From: Clostridia bacterium
GTDB taxonomy: Bacteria > Bacillota > Clostridia > Christensenellales > Aristaeellaceae
DNA length: 64,000 nt
Assembly (NCBI GenBank): GCA_017526525.1
Contig: JAFXRG010000023.1
Span: 1 to 64,000, forward strand
Direction: 5' to 3'
Shown here: positions 1,580-48,000 of the stretch, in pieces
How positions within the stretch are numbered: the stretch's first letter is position 1
Layout of the letters: each line of letters begins with the position of its first letter
Translations under genes and position numbers: made by a program
The notes under the pieces: model-generated
Told to the model about the DNA's origin: nothing
Seen by the model: only the letters and a program-made list of their open reading frames with translations
Database searches by the model: none

Positions 1580-1709
1580 ATGGCACCGGAGGCATGGCCC
1601 CGGAGGGCGCGGAACGGCGGAAAACGGTTGCTCCGGAAGCATTATAGACCTCCGGAGAGGAACAATCAATCATCAATCTGTCTGCGGCTGCGATGGTACC
1701 GAACCCTGA

Positions 1710-1738
1710 TTGACGGGAAGGGTGCTTTCTTTTATAAT
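1710..1738 (+). promoter_or_regulatory. Promoter of the dCMP deaminase operon
   Basis: TTGACG (1710-1715) and a perfect TATAAT (1733-1738) are separated by exactly 17 bases and lie 33 bases before the deaminase start. With no convincing terminator until about 6380, this promoter could drive the deaminase, the DUF6062-like gene and the sensory hydrogenase cluster. Confidence 0.82.
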
Positions 1739-1771
1739 GTTCAAAAAGCGGAAAAAGGGGATACAAAGCGA

Positions 1772-2269
1772 ATGGACAAATGGGACGATCGGTTTATGCA
1801 GATGGCGTTTACGATTGCCGGCTGGTCCAGCTGCTTCCGGGAGGGCCGCAGCATCGGCTGCGTGATCGTGAAGGACAAGCGGATTATGACCACCGGTTAC
1901 AACGGCGCGCCGGCGGGAATCAAAACCTGCCGGGAAAAGGGCGAATGCCTGCGGGACAAGCTGGGCATTGCCAGCGGAACCCGAATGGAAACCTGCTACG
2001 CGGTACACGCGGAGCAGAATGCCATTGTCCAGGCGGCCAAACTGGGCGTTTCCATTGACGGGGGAACCCTGTACTGCACACACCAGCCCTGCTCCATGTG
2101 CTGCAAGATGATCATCAACAGCGGAATCAGGAGAGTGGTTTACCAGGAAGGATATCCGGATCCGTTTACCCTGGAGCTTTTTGACGAGGCCGGGGTGAAG
2201 CTGGAGAAAACCGGGGGGAGCCTGAAGATCGAACCCGTCGCTGAAAACGGGAAAGGACAGGGGAAATGA
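1772..2269 (+). CDS. Deoxycytidylate (dCMP) deaminase family protein
   Basis: A 165-residue zinc-dependent deaminase. It has the catalytic His-Ala-Glu at residues 79-81 (HAEQNAI) and the second zinc-binding motif PCSMC at 106-110, and an N-terminal TGYNGAPAG loop typical of dCMP/ComEB-type deaminases. The family converts dCMP to dUMP to feed thymidylate synthesis; ComEB homologues look similar, so the exact substrate is inferred. The ATG at 1772 is chosen because AAAGGGG lies about 11 bases upstream and a good promoter precedes it; an upstream in-frame extension runs through the promoter and is rejected. The next gene overlaps by four bases (ATGA). Confidence 0.9.
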   Translation: MDKWDDRFMQMAFTIAGWSSCFREGRSIGCVIVKDKRIMTTGYNGAPAGIKTCREKGECLRDKLGIASGTRMETCYAVHAEQNAIVQAAKLGVSIDGGTLYCTHQPCSMCCKMIINSGIRRVVYQEGYPDPFTLELFDEAGVKLEKTGGSLKIEPVAENGKGQGK

Positions 2270-3039
2270 GATACCATATCGATACCATTCCGGTGCTGGA
2301 TGCGCTGAAGCTGGAAGGAGAATGCCTGCTTTGCGCGCTGGAGAGGAAAACGGAACTGGGAGAGGCAGAACGCTACCTGGGGGCTTCCGTGATGGAACCG
2401 GATATCCGGGTTCAGGTGAACAGCAAAGGCTTCTGCCGCCGCCATCACGCCATGCTTTATGGCATGAGCAACCGGCTGGGACACGCGCTGATGCTGGAAA
2501 GCCACATGATTGAGACCCGGGAACGGACGGAAAAAATTTACAAAAAGCTGGACGGCGCCGCCGAAACGCTGAAGAATATCGGCCTGGCAGGCCGGCTGGG
2601 GGGAAAGGCCAAAGGACCCGACGCCGCTGTACAGGAAAGCATTGAGGCCCTGCAGGAGCTTGCCGGAAGCTGCCTGATGTGCGAAACCATTGAGGAAAAC
2701 ATGCAGAGATACCTGCATACCTTCCTGCACCTTTACCAGAACGACACGGATTTCCGCACGCGCTTCAGTGCCGGAAAGGGATTGTGCCTGCCCCATATGG
2801 CCCGGCTGCTGGAAGCGGCCCGGGCAGAGCTGGGGCCGAAGGAGCTGGGAGGCCTGATTTCCGTGCTGACCAAAGCCCAGCGGGAGAACATGGACCGGAT
2901 TCAGGAAGAAATATCCTGGTTCATCAAGAAATTTGACTACCGGTACGAAAAAGAATCCTGGGGAAACAGCAAGGACGCGGTAGAACGGACGGTCAATAAA
3001 CTCCGGGGATGGTGCGTCGGGAAGGAACCTGCCGAATAA
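2266..3039 (+). CDS. DUF6062-like Cys-rich protein of unknown function
   Basis: A 257-residue soluble, mainly helical protein. It contains paired cysteine/histidine motifs: CLLC near residue 20, GFCRRHH near 65, CLMC near 138 and GLCLPHMARL near 172. The two halves look like an internal duplication, each with a CxxC followed by a C-x2-H or C-x2-PH, which suggests metal binding. I recognise it only as a conserved family in Clostridia resembling DUF6062; no function is known to me. Its start overlaps the deaminase stop (ATGA), indicating translational coupling, and the sensory hydrogenase cluster follows after 42 bases. Confidence 0.7.
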   Translation: MRYHIDTIPVLDALKLEGECLLCALERKTELGEAERYLGASVMEPDIRVQVNSKGFCRRHHAMLYGMSNRLGHALMLESHMIETRERTEKIYKKLDGAAETLKNIGLAGRLGGKAKGPDAAVQESIEALQELAGSCLMCETIEENMQRYLHTFLHLYQNDTDFRTRFSAGKGLCLPHMARLLEAARAELGPKELGGLISVLTKAQRENMDRIQEEISWFIKKFDYRYEKESWGNSKDAVERTVNKLRGWCVGKEPAE

Positions 3040-3081: not shown

Positions 3082-3453
3082 ATGACGATTCGGGAAGTCA
3101 TGAAGATTGTGGAAGGAAAAGTGCTGGTGGGGGAAGACCGGCTGGATACGCCTGTGGAAACCGCCTGCGGATCGGATCTGATGAGTGACGTGCTGGCATT
3201 CGTGAAGGACAGGACCGTGCTGATTACCGGACTGATTAACCCGCACGTGGTTCGTACCAGTGAGATGCTTGATATTACCTGCATTGTGTTCTCCCGGGGG
3301 AAAATGCCCAGCGAGGAAATCCTGGAGATGGCGGATGAAGTCGGCATTACCGTGATTGCAAGCCCGCTGACGACCTATACAGCCTGCGGGGAACTGTATG
3401 TGCGCGGACTGCCGGGCACCAAGGCGAAGAAACCTGAACCGGAGGGAGCATAA
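3082..3453 (+). CDS. DRTGG-domain protein, first of the sensory hydrogenase cluster
   Basis: A 123-residue soluble protein matching stand-alone DRTGG-domain proteins of Clostridia: an N-terminal segment, then SDLMSDVLAF, LINPHVVRTSEMLDI and the C-terminal GITVIASPLTTYTACGELY. DRTGG domains occur in phosphotransacetylases and are thought to be regulatory ligand-binding modules; the ligand is not known. It is followed after two bases by an ATPase gene and then by a sensory-type [FeFe] hydrogenase, a neighbourhood seen in many anaerobic Firmicutes. A second DRTGG gene lies at 5269 on the other side of the hydrogenase. Confidence 0.8.
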   Translation: MTIREVMKIVEGKVLVGEDRLDTPVETACGSDLMSDVLAFVKDRTVLITGLINPHVVRTSEMLDITCIVFSRGKMPSEEILEMADEVGITVIASPLTTYTACGELYVRGLPGTKAKKPEPEGA

Positions 3454-3455
3454 AA

Positions 3456-3881
3456 ATGGCTGTATTGCTGGAAAAGAGTTTTCCCGTGGAAGCCGGCGCC
3501 TTCACCACGGCCGGGGAAGCCTCCACCACCATCAAACGGACGCTGAAACAGCTGGGGATCAATGCGGAAGTGCTGCGGCACGTTTCCGTTGCCTGCTACG
3601 AGGTGGAGCTGAACCTGGTGATTCACTCCCTGGGCGGTACGCTGACGCTGCTGGTGGATCCGGAAAAGGTAACGCTGATTTCCAAAGACGTGGGTCCGGG
3701 CATTCCGGACATTGACAAGGCAATGACGGAAGGCTTCTCCACCGCCAGCGCGGAGGCGCGGACGCTGGGGTTCGGCGCCGGTATGGGACTGCCGAACATG
3801 AAACGGAACGCCACGGAGTTTGACATTCAGAGCGAAGTCGGGGTTGGAACCACCATCACCATGAGCTTCGCCCTCCGATAA
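3456..3881 (+). CDS. RsbW-like GHKL ATP-binding protein
   Basis: A 141-residue stand-alone HATPase_c domain. Visible are the N-box (ACYEVELNLVIHS, with the metal-coordinating Glu and Asn), the G1 box (DVGPGIPD) and the G2 box (GFGAGMGLPNMKR). Proteins of this size act as anti-sigma-factor serine kinases (RsbW/SpoIIAB type), but no antagonist, PP2C phosphatase or sigma factor gene is present nearby. It is tightly packed between the DRTGG gene (2 bases) and the sensory hydrogenase (21 bases), so it probably relays the hydrogenase signal; that role is inference. Confidence 0.85.
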   Translation: MAVLLEKSFPVEAGAFTTAGEASTTIKRTLKQLGINAEVLRHVSVACYEVELNLVIHSLGGTLTLLVDPEKVTLISKDVGPGIPDIDKAMTEGFSTASAEARTLGFGAGMGLPNMKRNATEFDIQSEVGVGTTITMSFALR

Positions 3882-3902
3882 GGGAACGAAAGGTCTGCGG
3901 TT

Positions 3903-5204
3903 ATGGTTACGAAAGAAAAACGGTTTCATTCGGTGCGGCTGGAAGGGGAAAAATGCCGGGGCTGCACCAACTGCCTGAAGCGCTGTCCGACAGAGGCTAT
4001 ACGGGTTCGGGGCGGACGGGCGCATATTATCGACGAACGGTGCATTGATTGCGGGGAGTGCATCCGGGTCTGCAGCTATCACGCCAAAGTGGCGGTGACG
4101 GATCCCCTGAGCTCCATTTCACAGTTCAAATACAAAATCGCACTGCCGGCGCCGAGCCTGTACGGACAGTTCAACAACCTGAAGAGCATTTCACATGTGC
4201 TGGGCGGCCTGAAGCGCATGGGCTTTGACGATGTTTATGAGGTGGCCCGCGGGGCTGATGTTGTCAGCAAGGCAATCCGGGAGCGGCTGAAGGATCCGAA
4301 GCTGCCGCGGCCGGTGATTTCCTCCGCGTGTCCTGCCATCGTGCGGCTGATTCAGGTGCGGTTTCCGGACCTGATTGACCACATTGTGGACGTGCGCCAG
4401 CCCATGGAAGTGGCGGCGATGATTGCCCGGCAGGAGTTTGCGAGGAAACACGGGGTAAATCCGGAGGAGATCGGGTGCTTTTTCATCACGCCGTGTCCGG
4501 CCAAGGTGACGGCCATCCGGAATCCTATCGGCCATGAAAAGAGCGCGGTGAACGGGGCTATTTCCGTGCTGGAGATTTACGGACTGCTGTCCAGCCAGCT
4601 GAAAAACACGCCGGTGGACCTGACCCTGGAGGAAGCTTCCGACATCGGAGTCGGATGGGCCCGCAGCGGCGGGGAGAGCTTCGCAGTGAGTCCCGATGAA
4701 GCCATGGCGGTGGACGGAATTGAGAACTGTATCCGGGTGCTGGAGGAAATTGAAGACAACCGGCTGAAAAACCTGGAGTTTTTTGAAGGCGCTGCCTGCA
4801 CCGGCGGATGCGTCGGCGGGCCGCTGAACTTTGAAAACAATTATGTGGCCCGGTCGGAAATCCGGAAACTGGCAACCCGGCAGACGGAGCCGGAGCTGAA
4901 CGTGGACAGCGGCATGATGACCAAGTACGACCTGTACATGAGCGGAAGAATCCTGCCGAATTCGGCGATGAAGCTGGACGACGATCTGATGGAAGCCATG
5001 AGAAAGATGGAAAAGATCGAAAAACTGTACAGCGAACTGCCCGGATTCGACTGCGGAAGCTGCGGAAGCCCCACCTGCCGGACCTTTGCGGAGGACGTGA
5101 TCCAGGGCGACGCTACGAGAATGGACTGTATCCACATGATGAAGGACCAGCTGCGGGTTATGGCGCAGCAAATGGTGGATCTGGCAAAGACGACCCGCGA
5201 ATAA
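3903..5204 (+). CDS. Putative sensory [FeFe] hydrogenase (PAS-less)
   Basis: A 433-residue protein. Two [4Fe-4S] ferredoxin motifs are at the N-terminus (Cys 18/21/24/28 and 47/50/53/57). An H-cluster domain follows with motif L1 SSACPAI (140-146), L2 TPCPAKV (196-202) and L3 AACTGGCVGG (297-306), so all four cluster ligands are present as Cys143, 198, 299 and 303. At the C-terminus a CGSCGSPTC motif (384-392) plus a later Cys forms a further Fe-S domain. The proton-transfer cysteine of catalytic enzymes (the first Cys of TSCCP) is replaced by Ala142, as known for the sensory HydS group. No PAS domain is seen, unlike HydS of group C, so group D is a tentative assignment. Its neighbours are regulatory, which supports H2 or redox sensing over bulk H2 turnover. 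Confidence 0.88.
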   Translation: MVTKEKRFHSVRLEGEKCRGCTNCLKRCPTEAIRVRGGRAHIIDERCIDCGECIRVCSYHAKVAVTDPLSSISQFKYKIALPAPSLYGQFNNLKSISHVLGGLKRMGFDDVYEVARGADVVSKAIRERLKDPKLPRPVISSACPAIVRLIQVRFPDLIDHIVDVRQPMEVAAMIARQEFARKHGVNPEEIGCFFITPCPAKVTAIRNPIGHEKSAVNGAISVLEIYGLLSSQLKNTPVDLTLEEASDIGVGWARSGGESFAVSPDEAMAVDGIENCIRVLEEIEDNRLKNLEFFEGAACTGGCVGGPLNFENNYVARSEIRKLATRQTEPELNVDSGMMTKYDLYMSGRILPNSAMKLDDDLMEAMRKMEKIEKLYSELPGFDCGSCGSPTCRTFAEDVIQGDATRMDCIHMMKDQLRVMAQQMVDLAKTTRE

Positions 5205-5268
5205 CCGGGACGTTCCTGCAACGGAAGACAAAAAAAATCAAGAAAAAAGAATCCGGGAGATGAATACA

Positions 5269-5616
5269 ATGATTGTCAGGGATTTGACGGAACTGCTGGA
5301 AGCAAAGGACCGGACGCCGGAAACAGACAAGAACGCGGAGGTCTCCTGCGGCTATACCTGCGACCTGCTGAGCTGGGTCATGGCCCACGGCACGGCGGGG
5401 ATGGCCTGGGTTACGGTGCAGACCCATATGAACGTGATTGCCGTGGCCAGCCTGATGGAGATGACGGCAGTGATTATTCCCGAGGGAATCGAAATGGAAG
5501 CCCCTTCGGTGGAAAAGGCGAAGGAAGAAGGGATTACCGTGCTGGAAAGCCCGCTGACCGCCTATGAAATCTGCGCAAGACTTGCCGGAAAAGGACTGCC
5601 GGGGAAGCACGAGTGA
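5269..5616 (+). CDS. Second DRTGG-domain protein
   Basis: A 115-residue homologue of the 3082 gene product, with CDLLSWVMAH, VQTHMNVIAVASLMEM and GITVLESPLTAYEICARL. An ATG at 5260 is in frame but only one base after the GGGAG ribosome binding site; the second ATG at 5269 has a spacing of about 8 bases and is preferred. The two DRTGG proteins flank the sensory hydrogenase and may form a pair that reads a shared ligand. Their exact biochemical activity is unknown. Confidence 0.8.
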   Translation: MIVRDLTELLEAKDRTPETDKNAEVSCGYTCDLLSWVMAHGTAGMAWVTVQTHMNVIAVASLMEMTAVIIPEGIEMEAPSVEKAKEEGITVLESPLTAYEICARLAGKGLPGKHE

Positions 5617-5657
5617 AAAAAGAGGGTAACCGATGAAGGGAAAGGGGAGGAAGAAGC

Positions 5658-6350
5658 ATGCTGGCTGACCTGCATATCCATTCCTGCCTGAGCCCCTGTG
5701 CGGACGACGACATGACGCCAGCGAACATCTGCGGAATGGCGCATATCAAGGGCCTGCAGGCGATTGCCGTGACAGACCACAACACAGCCCGAAACCTGCC
5801 CTATGTGAAAGAAGCGGCAGATTACTACGGGCTGATCCTGCTGCCCGGAATGGAAATCACGACCCGGGAGGAAGTGCATCTGCTGGGCTATTTCCGGGAT
5901 GTGGAAACCGCGGTGAAAATCGGGGAAATTTTCACGGAACACCTGCCGAAAATGAAAAACAGGCCGGACTATTTCGGCAACCAGTATGTGATGAATACGG
6001 ATGACGAAATCATTGCGACAGAGGAACGGCTGCTGATCGGATCCACGGACCTGGACCTGGCGGAATGCACGAAAATCATCCGGGAAAACGGCGGCGCCGC
6101 TGTTCCCGCCCACATCAACCGGGGGCACGGACTGCTGACCAACCTGGGACTTTTTCCGGAAGAACCCGATTTCCCGGTCTGCGAGGTCCGGAAGGAGCTG
6201 CCGGTTTCAGACCGGCTGGTGGGAAACCGGCTGCGGCTGCAGTCCTCGGACGCACATCACCTGGGAGATATTCTGGAGGCTGTTTTCGACCTGGAGGTGG
6301 ACCGGTTTTCGCTGGGCGGGCTGTTTGAAAGGATCAGCGGCGGCCTGTGA
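5658..6350 (+). CDS. PHP-domain phosphoesterase
   Basis: A 230-residue protein of the polymerase-and-histidinol-phosphatase superfamily. Metal-binding motifs are in order: DLHIHSCLSPC at the N-terminus, VTDHNT near residue 40, GMEITT near 73, PAHINRG near 152 and SSDAHHLG near 197. PHP proteins are metal-dependent phosphoesterases or nucleases; this subgroup commonly lies in Clostridial hydrogenase-sensor clusters but its substrate is not established. A GGGGAGGAAG ribosome binding site precedes the ATG. It appears to be the last gene of the sensory cluster, followed by a weak hairpin and a new promoter. Confidence 0.85.
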   Translation: MLADLHIHSCLSPCADDDMTPANICGMAHIKGLQAIAVTDHNTARNLPYVKEAADYYGLILLPGMEITTREEVHLLGYFRDVETAVKIGEIFTEHLPKMKNRPDYFGNQYVMNTDDEIIATEERLLIGSTDLDLAECTKIIRENGGAAVPAHINRGHGLLTNLGLFPEEPDFPVCEVRKELPVSDRLVGNRLRLQSSDAHHLGDILEAVFDLEVDRFSLGGLFERISGGL

Positions 6351-6400: not shown

Positions 6401-6447
6401 GTTAGTATAAACTAACCAAAAATCTTTCCAAAACAAATCAAAAAAGC

Positions 6448-6476: not shown

Positions 6477-6551
6477 TAACAACTGTGAAAACGGACTTTT
6501 GCTGCGATTTTTGCAAAAGGTTCAAAATACATCAAGGAGGTCATGGACGGT

Positions 6552-7022
6552 ATGCCTGACAAAAAGGAAAAGTACGCAAAGCTGCAGGAGGTCATTGAGA
6601 AGCGCAAAGGCGAGCGCGGCGCGGTGATGCCCTGCCTGCAGGAAGCCATGAACATTTTCGGCTATGTGCCGCAGGACGTTCAGGAAATGATCGCGGACGG
6701 GCTGGGCGTGACCCTGTCCGAAGTATACGGCGTTTCCACCTTCTACTCCCAGTTTTCCCTGAAGCCCAAGGGAGAACACGTGATCGGCGTGTGCCTGGGC
6801 ACTGCCTGCTACGTAAAGGGCAGCCAGAAAATTATTGATAAAATCTCCGAAGAGCTGAAGATCCAGCCCGGTGATACCACGGAGGACGGGAAGTTCACCC
6901 TGAACGCCACCCGTTGCCTGGGCGCCTGCGGCCTGGCCCCCGTTATGATGATCGGGGAAGAAGTGTACGGCCGGCTGACTCCGGACCTGGTTCCGGGCAT
7001 CCTGGAAAAGTACCGTGCGTGA
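6552..7022 (+). CDS. hydC: HydC: NuoE-like [2Fe-2S] subunit of bifurcating hydrogenase
   Basis: A 156-residue NuoE/24-kDa-type subunit with helical N-terminus (MPCLQEAMNIFGYVP) and thioredoxin-like [2Fe-2S] fold; the ligands are in CLGTACYVKG and ATRCLGACGLAPV. In HydABC enzymes this subunit helps pass electrons between NADH, ferredoxin and the H-cluster. AAGGAGG ends at 6540: an ATG at 6543 is only 2 bases away, while the in-frame ATG at 6552 is 11 bases away. I prefer 6552, though 6543 is possible. The end overlaps the next gene by 8 bases. Confidence 0.9.
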   Translation: MPDKKEKYAKLQEVIEKRKGERGAVMPCLQEAMNIFGYVPQDVQEMIADGLGVTLSEVYGVSTFYSQFSLKPKGEHVIGVCLGTACYVKGSQKIIDKISEELKIQPGDTTEDGKFTLNATRCLGACGLAPVMMIGEEVYGRLTPDLVPGILEKYRA

Positions 7023-7572
7023 CCTGAGCCTGCATCTGCTGGATCTGGCGCAGAACAGCATCACCGCCGGGGCAAGCCTGGTGACGATACGGCTGACGCT
7101 GGAGGAAAGCGGAATGCTGATCCTGCAGCTGGAGGACAACGGGAAGGGCATGAGCCCTGAACTGCTTCAGCGGGTGACCAGTCCCTTCGCCACCACCCGG
7201 ACGACCCGCAAGGTCGGACTCGGCATTCCCATGATGAAGGAAAACGCCGAAAAAGCCGGAGGGGTATTTACCCTGGAAAGCGAAGAGGGAAAGGGCACGG
7301 TGCTTACCGCGTCCATGGACACAAAAAATATCGACTGCCTGCCTCCGGGGGATATGAGCGGCACCCTGCTGAGCCTGATGCTGACCAACCCCCTGTCGCC
7401 GGATTTCCGGATTGAAAGCAAAAGCCCGAAAGGGGAAAGCGTTTTCGATACCCGGGAGGTCCGGGCAGCCCTGGGCAGCGACATCCCATTTAACGAGCCT
7501 TCCGTGGCCGCATGGCTGAAGGAAGCACTGGACGAGGAAATGAAAACAATCTTTGGAGGTGTATGGATATGA
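7015..7572 (+). CDS. Histidine-kinase-type ATPase embedded in the hydrogenase operon
   Basis: A 185-residue protein with a HATPase_c domain in its first 105 residues: N-box LDLAQNSI, G1 box EDNGKGM, and G2 box GLGIPMMKENAE. There is no dimerisation/phosphoacceptor His domain and no sensor domain, so it is not a complete histidine kinase; the C-terminal 80 residues are unassigned. It starts with GTG inside the hydC gene (8-base overlap) and ends overlapping the next gene (ATGA), so it is tightly co-translated with hydrogenase subunits. This position between NuoE- and NuoF-like genes recurs in Clostridia. A regulatory role is inferred. Confidence 0.85.
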   Translation: MRDLSLHLLDLAQNSITAGASLVTIRLTLEESGMLILQLEDNGKGMSPELLQRVTSPFATTRTTRKVGLGIPMMKENAEKAGGVFTLESEEGKGTVLTASMDTKNIDCLPPGDMSGTLLSLMLTNPLSPDFRIESKSPKGESVFDTREVRAALGSDIPFNEPSVAAWLKEALDEEMKTIFGGVWI

Positions 7573-7937
7573 AATCTTTGGCAGATCTGGAAGCCATCCG
7601 CGCAAGAACGCTGGAAAACATCAACATGCGCAAGGATCAGGACGCGGCCCGTGTTGTGATCGGCATGGCCACCTGCGGAATTGCCGCCGGCGCACGCCCC
7701 GTGATGCTTGCCTTTATGGATGAAATTCAGAAGCGGAACCTGCAGCACGTTACCGTGAGCCAGACCGGCTGCATCGGAATGTGCCGCTACGAGCCCATGC
7801 TGGACGTGATTCTGCCCGGTCAGGAAAAAGTGACCTACATTCACGTGAAGCCTGAAATGGTACCGCGTATTGTTTCCGAGCACATTGTTAACGGCCATCC
7901 GGTGGCTGAATACACCATCGGCGCCGCAAACGACTGA
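7569..7937 (+). CDS. Small (2Fe-2S) thioredoxin-like ferredoxin
   Basis: A 122-residue protein with MATCGIAAGARP near residue 33 and SQTGCIGMCRYEP near 66. This cysteine pattern of the thioredoxin-like [2Fe-2S] ferredoxin fold is also present in HydC and in the N-terminus of HydB. ATG codons at 7563 and 7569 are both in frame; GGAGG ends at 7559, giving spacings of 3 and 9 bases, so 7569 is chosen, overlapping the previous stop as ATGA. It likely carries electrons for, or assembles with, the hydrogenase; such an extra subunit is seen in many Clostridial hyd operons. Confidence 0.87.
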   Translation: MKSLADLEAIRARTLENINMRKDQDAARVVIGMATCGIAAGARPVMLAFMDEIQKRNLQHVTVSQTGCIGMCRYEPMLDVILPGQEKVTYIHVKPEMVPRIVSEHIVNGHPVAEYTIGAAND

Positions 7938-7956: not shown

Positions 7957-9753
7957 ATGGAGCTTTATCGTTCTCATGTGCTGGTCTGCGGCGGCACCGG
8001 CTGTACTTCATCCGGATCCGCGAAGCTGATTGAACGTTTCGAGGAACAGCTGAAGGAAAAAGGCCTTGACAAGGAAGTCAAGGTGGTCCGTACGGGGTGC
8101 TTCGGACTGTGCGAAGCGGGCCCCGTGGTTATCGTCTATCCTGAAGGAACGTTCTACAGCCGCGTGAAAGAAGAAGACGTGGACGAGATCGTTTCCGAGC
8201 ACCTGCTGAAGGGCCGCAAGGTCCAGCGGCTGGTTTACGTGGATCACAAGACCCATGAATCCAGCGTGCAGAAGAGCCTGAGCGAGATCGGTTTCTACAA
8301 GAAGCAGATGCGTGTTGCGCTGCGGAACTGCGGCGTGATCGATCCGGAAAACATTGACGAATACATCGCGTTCGACGGCTATAAGGCCCTGGCCAAGGCC
8401 CTGACCGAAATGACCCCCGAACAGGTCATTGACGAAGTGCTGAAATCCGGCCTGCGCGGCCGCGGCGGCGCCGGTTTCCCCACCGGCAAAAAGTGGCAGT
8501 TTGCCCGGGCAACCCAGGCGGAGCACAAATACTTCGTCTGCAATGCGGACGAGGGTGACCCCGGCGCGTTCATGGACCGGTCCCTGCTGGAAGGCGATCC
8601 CCACGCGATTCTGGAAGCCATGGCCATCGGCGGATACGCCATCGGCGCGGATGAAGGCTGGATCTACGTCCGTGCGGAGTACCCCATCGCCGTAAAACGG
8701 CTGGAGAAGGCCATTGAACAGGCACATGAATACGGCCTGCTGGGCAACAACATTTTCGGCACCGATTTCAATTTTGACATTCACATCCGCCTGGGCGCCG
8801 GCGCTTTCGTGTGCGGCGAGGAAACCGCCCTGATGGCCTCCATTGAAGGCAAACGCGGCGAACCCCGGCCGAAGCCCCCGTTCCCGGCGGTGAAGGGCCT
8901 GTTTGAAAGCCCCACCAACATCAACAACGTTGAAACCCTGGGGAACGTGGCCCAGATCATTCTGAAGGGCGCCGACTGGTTCCGGTCCATCGGTACCGAG
9001 CGCTCTCCCGGCACGAAGGTCTTCGCACTGGGCGGAAAGATCAACAACACCGGCCTGGTGGAAGTTCCCATGGGAATTCCGCTCCGGACCATTATTGAAG
9101 ATATTGGCGGCGGATGCCCCAATGGCAAGAAATTCAAGGCTGTGCAGACCGGCGGTCCTTCCGGCGGATGCATCCCGGCCAGCCTGCTGGATACCCCCGT
9201 GGAATATGACACGCTGACCGCGATCGGCGCCATGATGGGTTCCGGCGGTATGATCGTAATGGACGAAGACAACTGTATGGTTGACATTGCCCGCTTCTTC
9301 CTGGACTTCACCGTGGACGAAAGCTGCGGCAAGTGCACTCCCTGCCGGGTCGGTACCCGCCGGATGCTGGAGATCCTGGAGCGGATTACCCAGGGCAAGG
9401 GCGAGGAAGGCGATATCGAGAAGCTGCAGGAGCTGGCCGAAAGCATCAAGAACAGCGCCCTGTGCGGCCTGGGCCAGACGGCTCCAAACCCCGTGCTTTC
9501 CACCATCAAGTATTTCCGGGATGAGTATGAAGCTCATATCCGCGAAAAACGGTGCCCGGCGCATCACTGCCAGGCCCTGCTGAATTACGAGATCACCGAC
9601 GCATGCCGCGGATGTACCGCCTGCGCACGGAAGTGCCCGGTGGGCGCCATTACCGGCAACGTGAAGGAACGCCATGTGATCGATCAGTCCAAGTGCATCA
9701 AGTGCGGATCTTGCATTGCAACCTGTAAGTTCGGCGCTATCGTGAAGAAGTAA
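7957..9753 (+). CDS. hydB: HydB: NuoF-like flavoprotein subunit of bifurcating hydrogenase
   Basis: A 598-residue NADH-binding flavoprotein. Domains in order: N-terminal thioredoxin-like [2Fe-2S] (CGGTGCTSSGS and RTGCFGLCEAGP), the FMN/NADH NuoF core with GRGGAGFPTGKKW near residue 169, the NuoF [4Fe-4S] motif ESCGKCTPCR near 455, and two C-terminal [4Fe-4S] motifs (CRGCTACARKCP and CIKCGSCIATCK) after 550. Size and domain order match HydB/HndC of trimeric and tetrameric NAD(P)-linked [FeFe] hydrogenases. It receives or delivers electrons at NAD(H), and its FMN is the likely bifurcation site. GAGGAGG lies 9 bases before the ATG; hydA follows after 23 bases. Confidence 0.95.
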   Translation: MELYRSHVLVCGGTGCTSSGSAKLIERFEEQLKEKGLDKEVKVVRTGCFGLCEAGPVVIVYPEGTFYSRVKEEDVDEIVSEHLLKGRKVQRLVYVDHKTHESSVQKSLSEIGFYKKQMRVALRNCGVIDPENIDEYIAFDGYKALAKALTEMTPEQVIDEVLKSGLRGRGGAGFPTGKKWQFARATQAEHKYFVCNADEGDPGAFMDRSLLEGDPHAILEAMAIGGYAIGADEGWIYVRAEYPIAVKRLEKAIEQAHEYGLLGNNIFGTDFNFDIHIRLGAGAFVCGEETALMASIEGKRGEPRPKPPFPAVKGLFESPTNINNVETLGNVAQIILKGADWFRSIGTERSPGTKVFALGGKINNTGLVEVPMGIPLRTIIEDIGGGCPNGKKFKAVQTGGPSGGCIPASLLDTPVEYDTLTAIGAMMGSGGMIVMDEDNCMVDIARFFLDFTVDESCGKCTPCRVGTRRMLEILERITQGKGEEGDIEKLQELAESIKNSALCGLGQTAPNPVLSTIKYFRDEYEAHIREKRCPAHHCQALLNYEITDACRGCTACARKCPVGAITGNVKERHVIDQSKCIKCGSCIATCKFGAIVKK

Positions 9754-9776
9754 TCGTGCGAGGAGGAACAACACAA

Positions 9777-11525
9777 ATGGAAAATCTCGTTAAGCTTACG
9801 ATTGACGGCGTCAGTGTTGAAGTCCCCGCCGGCACGACGGTTCTGGAAGCCGCGAAGAAGGCTGGCATCAACATCCCCACGCTGTGTTACCTGAAAGACA
9901 TCAACCAGATCGGCGCCTGCCGCATGTGTATCGTTGATACCGGCGCCCGCGCCTTCGGCGCAGCCTGCGTGCTGCCCGTTTCCCCGAATATGGTCGTCAA
10001 GACCAATACCCCCAAGCTCCGGGCGGCCCGCAAGATCAACCTGGAACTGCTGCTGAGCAATCACGACAAGCGCTGCCTGGACTGCGCCCGCAACCAGAAG
10101 TGCGAACTGCAGCAGATGTGTATCGACCTGGGCGTTGAAGATGTGGACAAGTTCAAGGGCAAGATGAACGAGTATGACATCGACGACCTGAGCCCCTCCA
10201 TCGTCCGGAACAACAACAAGTGCATCCTGTGCCGCCGCTGCGTTGCTGCCTGCAACAACACCCAGGCCGTGGGCGTGATCGGCCCCATGGGACGCGGATT
10301 CAAGACCAAGATCGGCAGCGCCTGGGAACAGCCGCTGAACGAAGTGGCCTGCATCAACTGCGGTCAGTGTATCGCGGCCTGCCCCACCGGCGCGCTGTAT
10401 GAAAAGGATTCCACCAAGGCGGTCTGGGACCTGCTGGCGGATGAAACCAAGCATGTGGTTGTGCAGCCCGCTCCCGCGGTCCGCGCCGCGCTGGGTGAAG
10501 AGTTTGGAATGCCCATGGGCACTTCCGTAACCGGAAAACTGGCTGCCGCACTGCGCCGCCTGGGCTTCGAAAAAGTGTTTGATACGGACTGGGGCGCGGA
10601 CCTGACCATCATGGAAGAGGGCACCGAGTTCATCGGCCGGCTGACCAAGGGCGGCGTGCTGCCCATGATCACCAGCTGCTCTCCCGGCTGGATCAAGTTC
10701 TGCGAAACCTATTATCCGGACTTCATTGACAACCTGAGCTCCTGCAAGTCTCCCCATGAGATGGAAGGCGCCATGATCAAGAGCTACTGGGCGGAGAAGG
10801 AAGGCATCGATCCCAAGGATATCCGCGTGGTATCCGTGATGCCCTGTACTGCCAAGAAGTTTGAGGCAAAGCGTCCCGAGCTGAGCCACAACGGCCTGCC
10901 GGACGTGGACGAAGTCATCACCACCCGCGAACTGGCCCGCATGATCAAGGAAGCCGGCATCGACTTCGTGAACCTGCCGGACGAAGACTTTGATCCCATG
11001 CTGGGCGAAAGCACCGGCGCAGGCGTTATCTTCGGCGCCACCGGCGGCGTGATGGAAGCCGCGCTGCGCACCGTTTACGAAAAGGTGACCGGCAAGACGC
11101 TGGACAACGTGGACTTCAACGACGTCCGCGGTATCCAGGGCGTGAAGGAAGCCACTGTGAAAGTGGGAGACCTGGATGTGAACGTGGCGGTAGCCCACGG
11201 CACCGCCAACGCGGCGAAACTGCTGGACAGCATTCGCAGCGGAGAAAAGACCTACCACTTCATCGAGATCATGGGATGCCCCGGCGGCTGCGTAACCGGC
11301 GGCGGACAGCCCATCGTGAACGCCCAGACCCGGATGGAATGCGATCCCAAGGTTCTCCGCGCGGCTGCCCTTTACCGGGAAGACGCGAACAAGCCCGAAC
11401 GGAAGAGCCACGAAAACGCTTCCATCATGGCCGTCTACAAGGACTACCTGGGCGAGCCCAACAGCCATCTGGCTCACGAGCTGCTGCATACCCACTACAC
11501 CAAGCGGGAAAAATACAGCAAATAA
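9777..11525 (+). CDS. hydA: HydA: catalytic [FeFe] hydrogenase subunit
   Basis: A 582-residue catalytic subunit. The N-terminus has a plant-type [2Fe-2S] domain (CYLKDINQIGACRMC), a His/Cys [4Fe-4S] motif (HDKRCLDCARNQKC) and two ferredoxin clusters (CILCRRCVAAC and CINCGQCIAAC). The H-cluster domain carries L1 TSCSPGW (299-305), L2 MPCTAKKFE (355-363) and L3 EIMGCPGGCVTGGGQP (497-512). The C-terminus has the small-subunit-like SHENASIMAVYKDYLGEP. This is the HndD/HydA type that oxidises or produces H2 while coupling NADH and ferredoxin. An in-frame GTG at 9756 is upstream of the AGGAGG site; ATG 9777 is correctly spaced. Confidence 0.95.
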   Translation: MENLVKLTIDGVSVEVPAGTTVLEAAKKAGINIPTLCYLKDINQIGACRMCIVDTGARAFGAACVLPVSPNMVVKTNTPKLRAARKINLELLLSNHDKRCLDCARNQKCELQQMCIDLGVEDVDKFKGKMNEYDIDDLSPSIVRNNNKCILCRRCVAACNNTQAVGVIGPMGRGFKTKIGSAWEQPLNEVACINCGQCIAACPTGALYEKDSTKAVWDLLADETKHVVVQPAPAVRAALGEEFGMPMGTSVTGKLAAALRRLGFEKVFDTDWGADLTIMEEGTEFIGRLTKGGVLPMITSCSPGWIKFCETYYPDFIDNLSSCKSPHEMEGAMIKSYWAEKEGIDPKDIRVVSVMPCTAKKFEAKRPELSHNGLPDVDEVITTRELARMIKEAGIDFVNLPDEDFDPMLGESTGAGVIFGATGGVMEAALRTVYEKVTGKTLDNVDFNDVRGIQGVKEATVKVGDLDVNVAVAHGTANAAKLLDSIRSGEKTYHFIEIMGCPGGCVTGGGQPIVNAQTRMECDPKVLRAAALYREDANKPERKSHENASIMAVYKDYLGEPNSHLAHELLHTHYTKREKYSK

Positions 11526-42671: not shown

Positions 42672-44951
42672 ATGACGAAACGGTTCAGAACAATGATCTC
42701 CATCCTTTGTGCACAGGCTCTCATGCTGAACGGCGTTTCAGCAGCTTTTGCCGCGGAAGTCAATCCGGCGGAAGATAATGAGGCGGCGGTGGAGAATGTT
42801 TGCAATTCCATATTGCCGGAAGAGAAATCCGAAGAGGAACAGCTTCCGGAAGAAAGCGAATCCCAGCCGGAGCTGGCCTCTGCTCCGGTGAACAACCCGG
42901 AAGAAGAAGCCGTACCTTCCGGAAAAGCGGATCCGGAAGCGGAACCTGCTCCGGCTTCCGCGCAGCAAACCGTTCCGGAAACAGAGCGGGAAATTACTTC
43001 CGAATCCATTCCGGAATCTTCGGAAGAGGCATCCCCGGAAAACAAGCCGGCGGATGCTGCTTCGGATGCAGGAATCCTGGAAGAGGTCGTTTCTGAGGCC
43101 ATGACCATTCAGGAAGCCGTAAATTCGGAAAAGGACACAATTCCTGCCGCAGGAACACCTGAACAGGAAGAAACGGAAGAAACCGAAGAAAACGGAACGG
43201 AAAATCCTGAAGAGGATAAAACGGCGCCTGAGGGAAAAACCGTTTCCGAAGAAAATGAGAAAGCGGAGGAAGAGACTGTTCCTGCCGAAGAAGTTCCTGG
43301 GGAAAATCCGCCGTCCGAATCAGACGAAGCCCCTGTGACGGAAGAAGAGAAGACCGAAAAACAGACAGAGGAAAAACCGAAAGGGGAATCTGCGGAACCT
43401 GCCGGGGACACTGAGGACAAACCGGAGGACCAGGCAGAAGGAAATCCGGAAGAAACCAACGAAGAAACAGCTCCTGCGGGCGAAGAAGCAGAAGCAGGGA
43501 AGAAGGACATTCCCGAAACCGAAGAAAACCCGGAGGCCGATAAGCCGGAAGAAAAACCTGCGGAGACACCCGAAACGGAAAATCCTTCCGCCGCAGAGGA
43601 CGGGATTCCCACAGAGCAGGAAGCAGATCCTGCCGAAGAAGTAAAGGATCCTGAAGAAGAGGAAGTTCTCCCGACAAAAGACAACACGGATTCCACAGAA
43701 GAGGGAAACCTTCCCACAACGGAAGAGAATCTCCCCGCCGAAGAGGAAACCGTTCCCACGGAAGAAGTCAAAGAACCAGAAAAAGAGGAAAATCTTCCTG
43801 CGGAAGAGGACACTGACTCCACCGGAGAAGAAAGCCTGCCTCCTGCGGAGGAAACCCTCCCCGCTGAAGAGGAAACCGTTCCTGCGGAAGAGAACACTGA
43901 TTCCACTGAAGAAGAAAGCCTTCCTCCTGCGGAAGAAAACCTCCCCGCCGAAGAGGAAACTGTTCCAACAGAGGGCGAAGACAAAGCGCCTGAAGCAGAC
44001 GATGAAGCAGAAGCAGAACCCGAAACCGATGCTGAAGAGATTCTGCTGAATCTGAACGGAAAGAAAAACATCCAGGGAGAAGTCTCCAGGGAAGCCCCGT
44101 TTACGGTGAAAGCTTCCGATGACGAGTCCCGTACCCTTCTCTTTACCCTGAAGGTTCCCACAGAAAACTGCATTATCGTCACACTGGACGAAAAGGAAAT
44201 TCAACTGACGAAGTCCGAAGATGAAAGCTCTTTCGGACCGGACATTGTGTACACCTTTGAGAAGCAGCTGGAAAAGGGACAGATCTATTCCTTCCTTCTG
44301 AAAACCGAAAAGGATGCAGCTGTTTCCTTCACAATGACGATCCGGGAGAAGGAAGAAGCAATGCCTGCAGAAGAAACCATGCAACCGGAAGAAACGGTTG
44401 CGGCCGGCGAAGAACCTGAAACCTCTGAGGCTCCGGAAGAGGATGAAGCTCCGGAAAGTGCCCGCATGGAAGAGACGGATAAAGAAACCAATCCGGATGA
44501 AGAAAACGGAGAACAGCCGGAAAATGCCGAAGAGGCGGATGAACAGGATAACAAACCGGAAACGGAAACCGAGGATCCGGGGATGATCAACGAGGAAGCA
44601 GAGCCTTCAGAGAAACAACAGGAAACCGCGGAAAACGAAATATACGGGAATGAGCCTTCGGCTTCAGGCGGAACAGAAGAAGAAACGGAAAAGGATTCGC
44701 CCCTTCTTCCAGAAGACCGGGAAGTGAAGGTTTCCCTTTCCTGGGATGACGAACAGCCTTCCATTGGTTCGGTTGCTCATTTTTCTGCAATCCTGACCGG
44801 ATATGACGGTCTTGAATATACCTTGCAATGGCAGTACAGCGAAGACGGTGAGAACTGGGAAAACATTGAGGATGGAATCGGGGAACACCTTGATGTGATC
44901 GTAACGGAAGAGAACAGTGTGTATCACTGGCGCGTCAAAGTCATCGTTTAG
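42672..44951 (+). CDS. Secreted Glu/Pro-rich acidic protein
   Basis: A 759-residue protein. The signal peptide MTKRFRTMISILCAQALMLN ends near SAAFA. Residues ~30-455 are low-complexity, dominated by Glu, Pro, Thr and Ala, and include 28-residue repeats with core SLPPAEE and LPAEEETVP. A small folded region follows (about 455-560), then a second Glu-rich stretch, and a C-terminal beta-sandwich-like segment (KVSLSWDDEQPSIGSVAHF to WRVKVIV). No LPXTG or membrane anchor is seen. The very acidic composition suggests an extended cell-surface or matrix protein. Its stop is 70 bases before the giant adhesin-like gene, and the two are probably expressed together. Function unknown. Confidence 0.8.
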   Translation: MTKRFRTMISILCAQALMLNGVSAAFAAEVNPAEDNEAAVENVCNSILPEEKSEEEQLPEESESQPELASAPVNNPEEEAVPSGKADPEAEPAPASAQQTVPETEREITSESIPESSEEASPENKPADAASDAGILEEVVSEAMTIQEAVNSEKDTIPAAGTPEQEETEETEENGTENPEEDKTAPEGKTVSEENEKAEEETVPAEEVPGENPPSESDEAPVTEEEKTEKQTEEKPKGESAEPAGDTEDKPEDQAEGNPEETNEETAPAGEEAEAGKKDIPETEENPEADKPEEKPAETPETENPSAAEDGIPTEQEADPAEEVKDPEEEEVLPTKDNTDSTEEGNLPTTEENLPAEEETVPTEEVKEPEKEENLPAEEDTDSTGEESLPPAEETLPAEEETVPAEENTDSTEEESLPPAEENLPAEEETVPTEGEDKAPEADDEAEAEPETDAEEILLNLNGKKNIQGEVSREAPFTVKASDDESRTLLFTLKVPTENCIIVTLDEKEIQLTKSEDESSFGPDIVYTFEKQLEKGQIYSFLLKTEKDAAVSFTMTIREKEEAMPAEETMQPEETVAAGEEPETSEAPEEDEAPESARMEETDKETNPDEENGEQPENAEEADEQDNKPETETEDPGMINEEAEPSEKQQETAENEIYGNEPSASGGTEEETEKDSPLLPEDREVKVSLSWDDEQPSIGSVAHFSAILTGYDGLEYTLQWQYSEDGENWENIEDGIGEHLDVIVTEENSVYHWRVKVIV
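43683..43976 (+). repeat. Tandem 84-base (28-residue) repeats in acidic protein gene
   Basis: Units starting at 43809 and 43893 are 84 bases apart and encode near-identical 28-residue segments beginning DTDST or NTDST. A diverged copy begins at 43683, 126 bases before the first. They lengthen the Glu/Pro-rich region. Confidence 0.8.
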
Positions 44952-45020
44952 GTGCCTGCTGAGAAATAAGATGCTGTATTATCGGATCTCCCTGAATGAC
45001 AAAGAAAGAGGCTGGATAAT

Positions 45021-48000
45021 ATGAAAAACACCGCCAGAAAAATATTCGCCATCCTGCTGGCCATGATGATGGCGTTTGATGTTATTCCGTTTTACGCAGC
45101 AGCGGAAGGAAACGGAACGGATAAGGATACCGGAGAATACGGTGGAACGTTCCGGGATGTATTGAAAAGCACTCCGGGAGCCGGTACCAGCGTTTCTATA
45201 GAAAGTGAAGCCTCCGTATCAGATGGGTATTACGTTATAGCTGTTAGTACATTAGGTGGTGTCTTTGCAGCCGAAATCACCGGAAATACAGTTGGTGAGT
45301 TTGTTAATAAATCAGGAGTTCCTAGTCAACCAGGAGAAAACTGGACATATCTAATTCTCTACAATACGGCTATTTCCAGCACTAATACTTCCAAAGCCCA
45401 AGCTGTTGCGGATGATTATTATTACAATCGTGATGGAATATCTGGCACACTGCTTAAGGCAAGCGGAGTGGCCGGCGACTATTATTTTTCATGGTCCAAT
45501 ACCCCTACGGAGGGGAAAATAACAATAAAGGTTCAGCCAAATGCAACAGCAGCAGTTGTCAGATTTGTTGATCAGAATGGAAGTACGTTTGCTGCCGGTG
45601 CATCACTGGGAGCATTGAAAAACAAGACGTTGGTTGTTTTTAAACAAAATCTCAACAATCAGGTATATCATTATTGTGCTCAGATTAATCAACCGTCAGT
45701 TGCAGAACAGAGTTTTTCTTTAGCAAACAACAACAACAGATTTCAGTATCCAAACGAAAATGCGTATAATTCTCAGGAACCGCTTGAAATCGGAATATAT
45801 ACACTAGGACAAAATAATGATCCAAGGGACGTTCTTTATAACGGCACGCCTGTAAATACAGACGGAATAAGCGGAGATTATGTTCTTGATAGCATAGGAT
45901 ACGAGTATGAGTCATCACCCCAAAGGTACAACAAAGTATTTACTTTTAAAAAGCTTCCTCCGCGAACTGTCAATATAAACTACTATGAAGTGGATGGAAA
46001 AACTCTGGATACAAGTCCGTCGATTCCAGCCGGTTATTATCTTGCTGCGCTCTATAATAATAATTGGTCTATCTATGCAACGATCAATACAAACGGTACT
46101 ATAGGACAATTTAAACAGAATGGAACTGCAATTGAACTGCCCGAAGTGCAGGGATTTAAGGTAATAAATAATATTACTAATATAGGCTGGGAGTCCTGCG
46201 ATTTATCAATTTATGAGATAACAAATCCATCCCCGATGGAGACGGATTCAAACAATACATATCAGATCAGAGCTCAGAAAAAGAAAGCATATACAGTAAA
46301 GATCGAGTTTTATTCAGGCAATGAAAAATACTCATTATCCAATGCAGATGCTGCTACACTGAATAACGGAAACTATTATCTGTTTTTAAACACGCCGGGA
46401 CGATACAACAATGAAAATCTTTATTATGTCAATACAATTCCGTTAAACAATACTTTTACTGCCGGACAATCAGAAACCAGTTATGCTGTTACTTCGTTCA
46501 GCATGGGAAATGCCGGTAATCCGCAGCAATATGAAAGCGAGCGCGAGGTGAACGTTTCTCTTACAGCTGGCAATCCTGACTATGAAGTTAATGGGGGTGG
46601 TGACAATCCACCGCGCGGCACACTGAAGAATCAGTCAAACGTTCTTGGAGCAGCTGATGCGTTTGGAAACGGATTTGCGATTTCTTCCATCACATCAAAT
46701 AAGACAAACGGAATCACTACCATCCGCGTTTCAAAGGTTGATCCATACCAGTATACAATCAGTGAATCAGCGAATAAGGATATTGCATTTGATTCCAATT
46801 ACGGAAGCAACTGGTATTATCTGGCAACGTTGATTAAGCCAAGCGGAAAGAAGTATTATTACGCGAAGCCGCTGACAATCCAGGGATCGACAATGAGCAG
46901 CGGAGACGGGGGTCGGATCGCTAAATTCTACTCAAATGAACAGCTTAGCAATATTTCTATAACAGATCCGGATAATTCCTCCGGGGTCATGACGAATCTT
47001 TATGTTACCGGGGATACGGTTATCAATGAACTGGTATACTGCGGGAAAAGCGCAAGTAATTATGGTGAAATTATCAATGGCTTTTCCGATCCCAATATCA
47101 TTCACAAAATCTTTGGAAATTCAGAAATCGTCAATAAATATACCATTCAGACTGCCAGCACAAACGGAACAGGAGTTATCACACTGACCAAGCTGGCAGA
47201 TCTGAAAACAAGCCAGCAGTTTAATCAAACAAACGGCCAAGCACAGAGTTACAGCGACATTCCGGAAAACGCAAAGAACTACAGACTGCTGATTACCCTG
47301 ACGGATGTGGAGGGAAATTCATATTATGCCCTGAAGCAGCAGGGCACTGCAGAAGGATTTAATCCGTCCGCAGTGGAGACAACCGGTTTGATCTTCCACA
47401 GCCTGAAGAGCGATGGGTCCATCAATACAAACGATCCGCATTACTATTCAGGAACCGGCGGAGAAAGGCTTGATGTTTCTGTTATATCCGGCTTGACGGA
47501 TAATCAGCTAACCCAAGCTGTGATTAACGGAACCGCGGCAGGAATCACAAAGTATCACGAAGGGGATATTACCACAGAACTGTATACTTTCTCCAGCAAA
47601 TTGGCTGAGAACAATGTTCTGAAGACGATCTTCACTAAAGTATCCAATAATGGTATTTCTCATGAAATTGCTACAGAGTTTTACCACTCCAAAGAGGGAA
47701 GCGCATATACCGGCGGAGAAACAGATAATCCCAAAATCAATGTGGGATCTGATCAGGTTTATTTCCGGGTGCTCCTGAAGAAGAAAAAAACAGACCAGGT
47801 GGTAGCATATTCCATTTTCAAAGCAGAGGATTATGTTACCAAGGTTAATGCTGATGGTAAGACAACCGTGGAAATTCCTGCAAATACAGGATACATCATG
47901 GTTGACGAAAACGGGAACGATAAGGTCAAGACACACGGCAGCGGAGAAAATCCGGCAACCTACTACATCGTACAATATGATCCGACAGTTTACGATATTG

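Follow-up and report, generated by a model that had tools for sequence, protein, structure and literature searches.

A group D [FeFe] hydrogenase in a conserved gene module ahead of the hyd operon of a Clostridia bacterium, with a second small ATPase as its probable sixth member

The window analysed here is a 64,000-nucleotide stretch of DNA from a Clostridia bacterium (GenBank assembly GCA_017526525.1, contig JAFXRG010000023.1, positions 1 to 64,000), located on contig C50 of a genome (G000) rated 64% complete. Near its start, five genes on the forward strand encode a DRTGG-domain protein (D1), a GHKL ATPase (H1), a [FeFe] hydrogenase (HydS), a diverged DRTGG-like protein (D2) and a PHP-family phosphoesterase (PHP), and they are followed by the genes of an NADH-dependent [FeFe] hydrogenase (Table 1). 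All five open reading frames (ORFs) of a preliminary description of this DNA are present, and its assignments hold for D1, H1, HydS and PHP, each of which is recognised by Pfam, but the second DRTGG protein, D2, has no Pfam DRTGG match. That description had overlooked a sixth gene, inside the hyd operon, which encodes another small GHKL ATPase (H2). The true start of the neighbouring gene FD2 is probably later than listed, as its ORF overlaps H2.

Table 1 Genes and elements of the HydS module and the adjoining hyd operon.
Feature	Position	Strand	Basis
D1, stand-alone DRTGG-domain protein, 123 aa	3082..3453	+	Pfam DRTGG
H1, SpoIIAB/RsbW-like GHKL ATPase (141 aa) without a recognisable His-acceptor domain	3456..3881	+	Pfam HATPase_c, HATPase_c_2; PDB profile
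HydS, group D (M2e) [FeFe] hydrogenase, 433 aa	3903..5204	+	Pfam, tree, T. wiegelii identity
D2, diverged DRTGG-like protein, 118 aa, start possibly 5269	5260..5616	+	hhalign to D1
PHP-family phosphoesterase, 230 aa	5658..6350	+	Pfam PHP 29.8 bits, cut-off 26.4
Inverted repeat GTTAGT-ATAA-ACTAAC in the PHP-hydC gap, possible operator, poor Rex box	6401..6416		sequence
HydC, NuoE-like subunit of NADH-dependent hydrogenase	6543..7022	+	2Fe-2S_thioredx 179.5 bits
H2, another small GHKL ATPase (185 aa) whose C-terminal extension is conserved, putative sixth module member	7015..7572	+	
FD2, small thioredoxin-like [2Fe-2S] protein of the hyd operon	7512..7937	+	2Fe-2S_thioredx 18.6, fdxn_Clost 36.8 bits, both below cut-off
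HydB, putative NuoF-like flavin subunit	7957..9753	+	ORF and homologues in the 101-locus class set
HydA, catalytic subunit of NADH-dependent [FeFe] hydrogenase	9756..11525	+	NF040763 910 bits, cut-off 765

HydS comprises two N-terminal [4Fe-4S] motifs, the H-domain (Fe_hyd_lg_C) and a C-terminal iron-sulfur (FeS) domain, and a Pfam scan at E 0.01 listed no PAS family in it. It is 55% identical to T. wiegelii HydS, and in a tree both fall within a branch of 100/99 support that sets 23 group D rows apart from the rows of groups A and B; the MCP rows, like those of group C, form long branches whose placement is unsure. The cluster cysteines are conserved at 0.99-1.00 among 101 sequences and the H-cluster ligands are retained. 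The L1, L2 and L3 loops read SSACPAI, TPC and GAAC, as against TSCSPGW, MPC and IMGC in HydA of the same genome, so that L1 carries Ala where HydA has Cys; as in group D, both the proton-path Cys and the pocket Met are replaced. These features bear out the preliminary view of a PAS-less sensory-type [FeFe] hydrogenase and, at the level of sequence, HydS is a group D (M2e) enzyme, belonging to a sensor class that is already known. The L1 loop of prototype [FeFe] hydrogenases is TSCCP, from which the loop of the window's HydA departs as well.

The group D enzyme of Thermoanaerobacter mathranii, TamHydS, is described as sensor-like in the available text of PMC8163306, from which the key residues were taken, and is altered at the loop positions corresponding to the changes in HydS. 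As far as the accessible portions of PMC8163306 and PMC13104023 go, the two share the domain layout, the lack of a PAS domain, the altered L1 Cys and pocket Met, a position upstream of a bifurcating hydrogenase and an adjoining histidine kinase-like ATPase. They differ in that one ATPase and an AraC regulator are named for TamHydS, whereas here D1-H1-HydS-D2-PHP occurs together with H2, and relatives show fusions and a linkage to rnf genes. M2e hydrogenases beside kinases and bifurcating hydrogenases also figure in the available part of PMC3561251. The group C enzymes (M2f; C1-C3 in HydDB; e.g. T. maritima HydS, hfs operons) likewise join a sensory-type H-domain to a C-terminal FeS domain, and the signalling genes linked to them are given in the accessible text of PMC5037454 as histidine kinase, MCP or Ser/Thr phosphatase genes. 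A PAS domain is described for them in the sections available from PMC8163306, whereas here neither PAS nor SpoIIE was found, and the group C-like copy of the same genome lies separately on contig C16.

The closest PDB profile match of H1 is SpoIIAB (1til, E 1e-11). Residues E49, N53, D78, G80 and G82 are invariant (1.00) in 96 sequences and the lid GFGAGMGL is conserved at 0.99-1.00; the GHKL Glu is presumably catalytic. H1 therefore resembles the SpoIIAB/RsbW kinases in its GHKL fold family, its catalytic Glu/Asn positions and its glycine-rich lid, but its partners here are DRTGG-type proteins and PHP, with no STAS, sigma or SpoIIE gene on the contig. No HisKA phospho-acceptor domain was found in either H1 or H2, for which Pfam at E 0.01 lists HATPase families only.

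D1 reaches 37.4 bits with Pfam DRTGG (cut-off 25.2) and agrees with the DRTGG fold. The only Pfam match of the window's D2 is MurD-like_N (E 0.0036, below cut-off). We nevertheless regard D2 as a relative of D1, because a profile-profile comparison (hhalign) aligned the two over 118 columns with a probability of 99.6% and the T. wiegelii protein at the D2 position passes the DRTGG cut-off (29.1 bits); at locus L208 the protein in this position passes it. D35, S38, T52 and N58 of D2 are invariant (1.00) in 94 sequences, and counterparts of R72 and K74 of D1 are absent. AF1212 (2ioj) and CBS-pyrophosphatase (3l2b, 3l31) also contain DRTGG domains, but D1 and D2 are a stand-alone pair, and in one of the two some of the conserved polar residues are missing. 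An alignment to 2ioj did not settle whether the conserved Ser is a phosphosite. In PHP, residues H6, H8, H41, E66, H74, H152, D198 and H200 are conserved at 0.99-1.00 (96 sequences) and make up the metal-binding set, the roles of the individual residues being our assumption; the nearest solved chains by sequence are EndoQ and a 5'-3' exoribonuclease.

To follow the module in other genomes, we used three partly overlapping sets of loci (L214/L281 and L066/L248 appear to be the same contigs): a class set of 101 loci from class-level genomes, consisting of the window and 100 of the 138 places outside it, chosen by contig room; a named set, the best 80 of 590 confirmed loci; and a phylum set of 39, selected by hand, in part because of long ORFs or unusual copies. 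The array was sought with clean separate profiles at those loci that have at least 1.7 kb of sequence on the upstream and 2.7 kb on the downstream side (96 of the 101, 54 of the 80 and 37 of the 39, respectively), either DRTGG label being accepted at the D places and either HATPase label at the H1 place. The D1-H1-HydS-D2-PHP array is intact at 89 of the 96 class, 49 of the 54 named and 25 of the 37 phylum loci, the last figure not being a population rate. The partner kept most steadily is a HATPase in the H1 position (94/96, 54/54 and 36/37), and D1 is the least steady one in the phylum set (28/37). D1, D2 or H1 seemed to be absent at several loci, most of which absences were recovered by a six-frame search.

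The same association is seen across 291 genomes, where HydS and PHP occur together in 134, HydS alone in 4 and PHP alone in 1; the corresponding numbers for HydS and H1 are 136, 2 and 3, with four genomes that have only weak H1 matches left out. Synteny and co-occurrence rule out a chance gene array, and its retention in all three sets confirms the recurrence in anaerobic Clostridia that the preliminary description had stated. Of 398 phylum genomes, 157 have HydS-type matches (E 1e-100, which HydA of the window does not reach). Many rumen and gut Clostridia metagenome-assembled genomes, and Thermoanaerobacter, are among the known carriers of the module. In the open-licence literature searched, we found no report of DRTGG or PHP proteins paired with a group D hydrogenase, and no description of the surrounding module, its sixth member or the fusions, the sensor class itself being known. 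At two loci (L251, L252) an extra PHP-family match lies upstream of D1.

H2 is the probable sixth member. Over the 291 genomes it occurs together with HydS in 134, HydS being alone in 4 (of 138 HydS genomes) and H2 alone in 14. Among the 246 genomes with HydA (threshold E 1e-150; 224 of them over the curated cut-off), H2 is found in 129 of 132 with HydS, compared to 14 of 114 without, which indicates that it tracks the sensor module and not hydABC. In the window and 50 or so relatives its gene lies between those for HydC and the [2Fe-2S] protein, and its distance to HydA is ~2.2 kb in eleven measured genomes of family f10; in one genome (G193) it is ~329 kb away from HydS. The top fold matches of H2 are MutL/PMS2, topoisomerase VI (VI-B) and GyrB domains, which act via ATP-driven dimerisation and from which H2 differs as a 185-aa stand-alone protein encoded in hyd/rnf operons. 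By sequence profile its nearest solved chain is KinB, and no histidine kinase is among its best 50 fold matches.

In gene maps that separate H1 from H2 and HydS from HydA by single-seed tie-breaks, the module is followed by hydC and H2 at 54 of the 101 class loci, window included, and is placed between hydC and H2 at 11. At some other loci it adjoins rnf-type genes. At L082 and L126 the genes after PHP and H2 match rnf in size and order (domains not each tested), and an RnfD-family protein was confirmed at L121. Genomes G211 and G269 have D1-H1-D2-PHP-H2 ahead of an rnf-type operon with HydS not inside, the HydS of G269 and G211 being located elsewhere (L130, L131), and G226 has H1-D2-PHP-HydC-H2-FD2-HydB-RnfC without HydS; RnfC domains were tested in G211 and G226. 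These HydS-less modules at rnf and hyd operons indicate that the signalling part can be split off from HydS and mostly remains beside ferredoxin:NAD enzymes. At L130 (7129-14183), HydS has no other module genes around it; an NAD kinase is encoded upstream, and an NqrF-type reductase is among the products of the downstream genes.

A constant upstream gene was considered as an output and rejected. A SPOR-domain protein of ~298 aa is encoded directly upstream of D1 in only 18 of the 101 class loci (e.g. L045:6171-7064), other loci having PRK, HD, AAA, histidyl-tRNA-synthetase-like, SpoIIE or unassigned genes. Dihydroorotate dehydrogenase genes adjoining the module in one family were treated as ordinary neighbours, and a neighbour guessed from its length to be pyruvate:ferredoxin oxidoreductase proved to be UvrD-like.

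Scanning 223 loci with the separate profiles revealed natural fusions between module members: D1-H1 in a single ORF at six loci (L213, L271, L285, L286, L287, L304), HydS-D2 at two (L265, L266), H1-HydS at one (L267) and PHP-H2 at one (L297), rates that, given the hand-picked loci, are not those of a population. Pfam confirms the fused domains in four examples, one per fusion type. L265 and L266 represent two genera of one family with a similar HydS-D2 linker; the single-genome fusions L267 and L297 could be sequencing or assembly errors. The fusions are the best evidence for, and give moderate support to, a complex of D1, H1, HydS and D2. Together with the fixed gene set and H2, they also name proteins to purify jointly and provide naturally occurring single-chain constructs.

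How a group D hydrogenase relays its signal is a question already raised in the available text of PMC8163306. The preliminary description had noted no SpoIIE/PP2C, anti-anti-sigma or sigma gene nearby, and indeed a profile search for SpoIIE, STAS and sigma-70 region 2 gave no match on contig C50 of this 64% complete genome. Its conclusion that a route to the output is lacking is not supported in that form. Given the co-occurrence of H2 with HydS, the fusions and the modules ahead of rnf-type operons, direct action on ferredoxin/NAD enzymes appears no less likely than a sigma-factor pathway.

We give about an even chance to the reading that HydS heads a six-component module whose output passes through H2 onto ferredoxin:NAD enzymes. 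The H-cluster of HydS would read H2 gas and/or the ferredoxin potential, HydS being a weak catalyst by analogy with TamHydS, which reportedly is one. In a complex with the SpoIIAB-like H1 and the DRTGG-type D1 and D2, as the fusions suggest, the state of HydS would set the activity of H1, which may phosphorylate a DRTGG partner or switch it in an ATP-dependent manner. PHP would undo the signal by removing phosphate or a nucleotide. The signal would be handed to the MutL-like ATPase H2, encoded in the hyd/rnf operon or beside PHP, which could act on HydABC and Rnf and so tune electron flow after translation. Signal, phosphotransfer and target are what we infer here, the latter two with weak support. 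A wider proposal, which we put forward tentatively and consider doubtful, is that this is a new signalling type, in which a hydrogenase-headed D1-H1-HydS-D2 complex with PHP and H2 as output directly gates electron-bifurcating or ion-pumping ferredoxin:NAD complexes, using neither a sigma cascade nor a two-component relay and taking other inputs where HydS is absent.

Several observations weigh against the six-component reading. The MutL/GyrB-like fold matches of H2, which are driven by dimerisation, make phosphotransfer by H2 doubtful, and the conserved S35 of D1 and S38 of D2 may be structural rather than phospho-acceptors. According to the accessible part of PMC13104023, H2 gas does not reduce the C-terminal [4Fe-4S] cluster of TamHydS. 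Fusions are scarce (10 ORFs in 223 loci), and the loci share descent, which means that p-values exaggerate their independence. PHP was not found beside HydS at several loci (e.g. L049, L105, L289, L290), and 114 of the 246 HydA genomes, about half, have no HydS. At 28 of the 101 class loci neither hydC-H2 nor H2 lies within eight downstream genes, some of these loci being at contig ends or having hyd genes upstream. Finally, the HydS-less modules imply that the remaining proteins can work without an adjoining HydS.

Classical partner switching in trans, with H1 as an anti-sigma-type kinase and its sigma factor, STAS antagonist and SpoIIE encoded elsewhere, is an unlikely alternative that draws on SpoIIAB being the closest solved relative of H1 by sequence. 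Candidate components exist off contig C50, with 10 SpoIIE, 5 STAS and 8 sigma-70 region 2 matches elsewhere in the genome, and at L134 a SpoIIE gene directly upstream of D1 encodes a protein 44% identical to the C16 SpoIIE. However, L134 was the only one of eight scanned representative genes upstream of D1 to encode SpoIIE, H1 falls far short of the curated SpoIIAB model (46.9 bits, cut-off 135), and its fusion partners are DRTGG or HydS, with no STAS domain among the fusions seen.

That the signal ends in transcription, by way of a two-component system or another DNA-binding regulator, seems to us quite improbable. Such regulators do occur: directly upstream of D1, L265 (9091-12001) has a histidine kinase containing FeS and PAS domains as well as an NtrC-type sigma-54 regulator, and L266 (9266-10639) has a regulator of the latter type; ahead of H1 are an OmpR-type regulator at L276 and, at L281, a histidine kinase with an OmpR-type regulator preceding H1-HydS. 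They are found at few loci, though, and the KdpD/KdpE-like pair at L283 may be an accidental neighbour. An AraC regulator is said to flank TamHydS in the available text of PMC8163306, but T. wiegelii HydS is flanked by HATPase and DRTGG proteins according to Pfam, with no HTH family listed; judging from these neighbours, the protein labelled AraC may be D2 under a wrong name. Beside H1-HydS and the regulatory pair at L281, a 637-aa protein (L281:4537-6447) combines an [FeFe] H-domain, FeS and an MCP chemotaxis domain. We do not regard this fusion as a new kind, as HydDB already includes a chemotactic class C2 (PMC5037454, available text).

Similarly improbable is a role in the assembly or quality control of the H-cluster or Fe-S enzymes, with H2 as a MutL-like ATP-driven clamp. 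The MutL-type fold of H2 and its position between HydC and the [2Fe-2S] protein would fit, but H2 is absent from 100 of the 114 HydA genomes without HydS, and HydABC as such therefore needs no H2. That HydS is a minor catalytic hydrogenase with unrelated neighbours is highly improbable: the H-cluster ligands are retained, but the conserved array, the co-occurrence, the fusions and the Ala of L1 in place of the Cys of HydA argue otherwise.

Junctions within the module are short or overlapping, with medians of -4 to 17 bp (starts in the locus maps are longest-ORF picks and hence approximate). The PHP-hydC gap exceeds 60 bp in 51 of 52 cases, with a median of 153 bp before hydC. Allowing two mismatches at most, we found Rex-like boxes in 26 of 66 hydC upstream regions versus 4 of 94 for D1, where shuffled controls preserving base composition only gave ~0.7 expected for each; upstream of hydC in the named set the count was 8 of 36 (no control). 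From this contrast, NADH/NAD control of hydABC via Rex is likely in many relatives, and the module may have its effect at a different level. We do not claim Rex for the window's own genome, where the best match at hydC has 5 mismatches. A GTTAG-N6-CTAAC repeat in a close relative (L173) is like that at 6401-6416 and may be the operator of an unknown regulator.

Thermoanaerobacter, one of the carriers, is of interest for ethanol production, in which the control of H2 gas versus other reduced products matters. The genome of the window has five Fe-hydrogenase places: two in the window, two on C16 and one on C2. Besides a [2Fe-2S] protein and a SpoIIE phosphatase, the C16 set (L136:5644-10156), which presumably resembles hfs operons, comprises two [FeFe] hydrogenases, one of them the group C-like copy. 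Directly upstream of the module, the window carries deaminase-like and DUF6062 genes (1580-3039), relatives of each being present in 11 of the 101 class loci. Further along, positions 44001-50000 have a G+C content of 0.42-0.47, compared to 0.50-0.60 in the remaining 2-kb bins, and are possibly acquired DNA.

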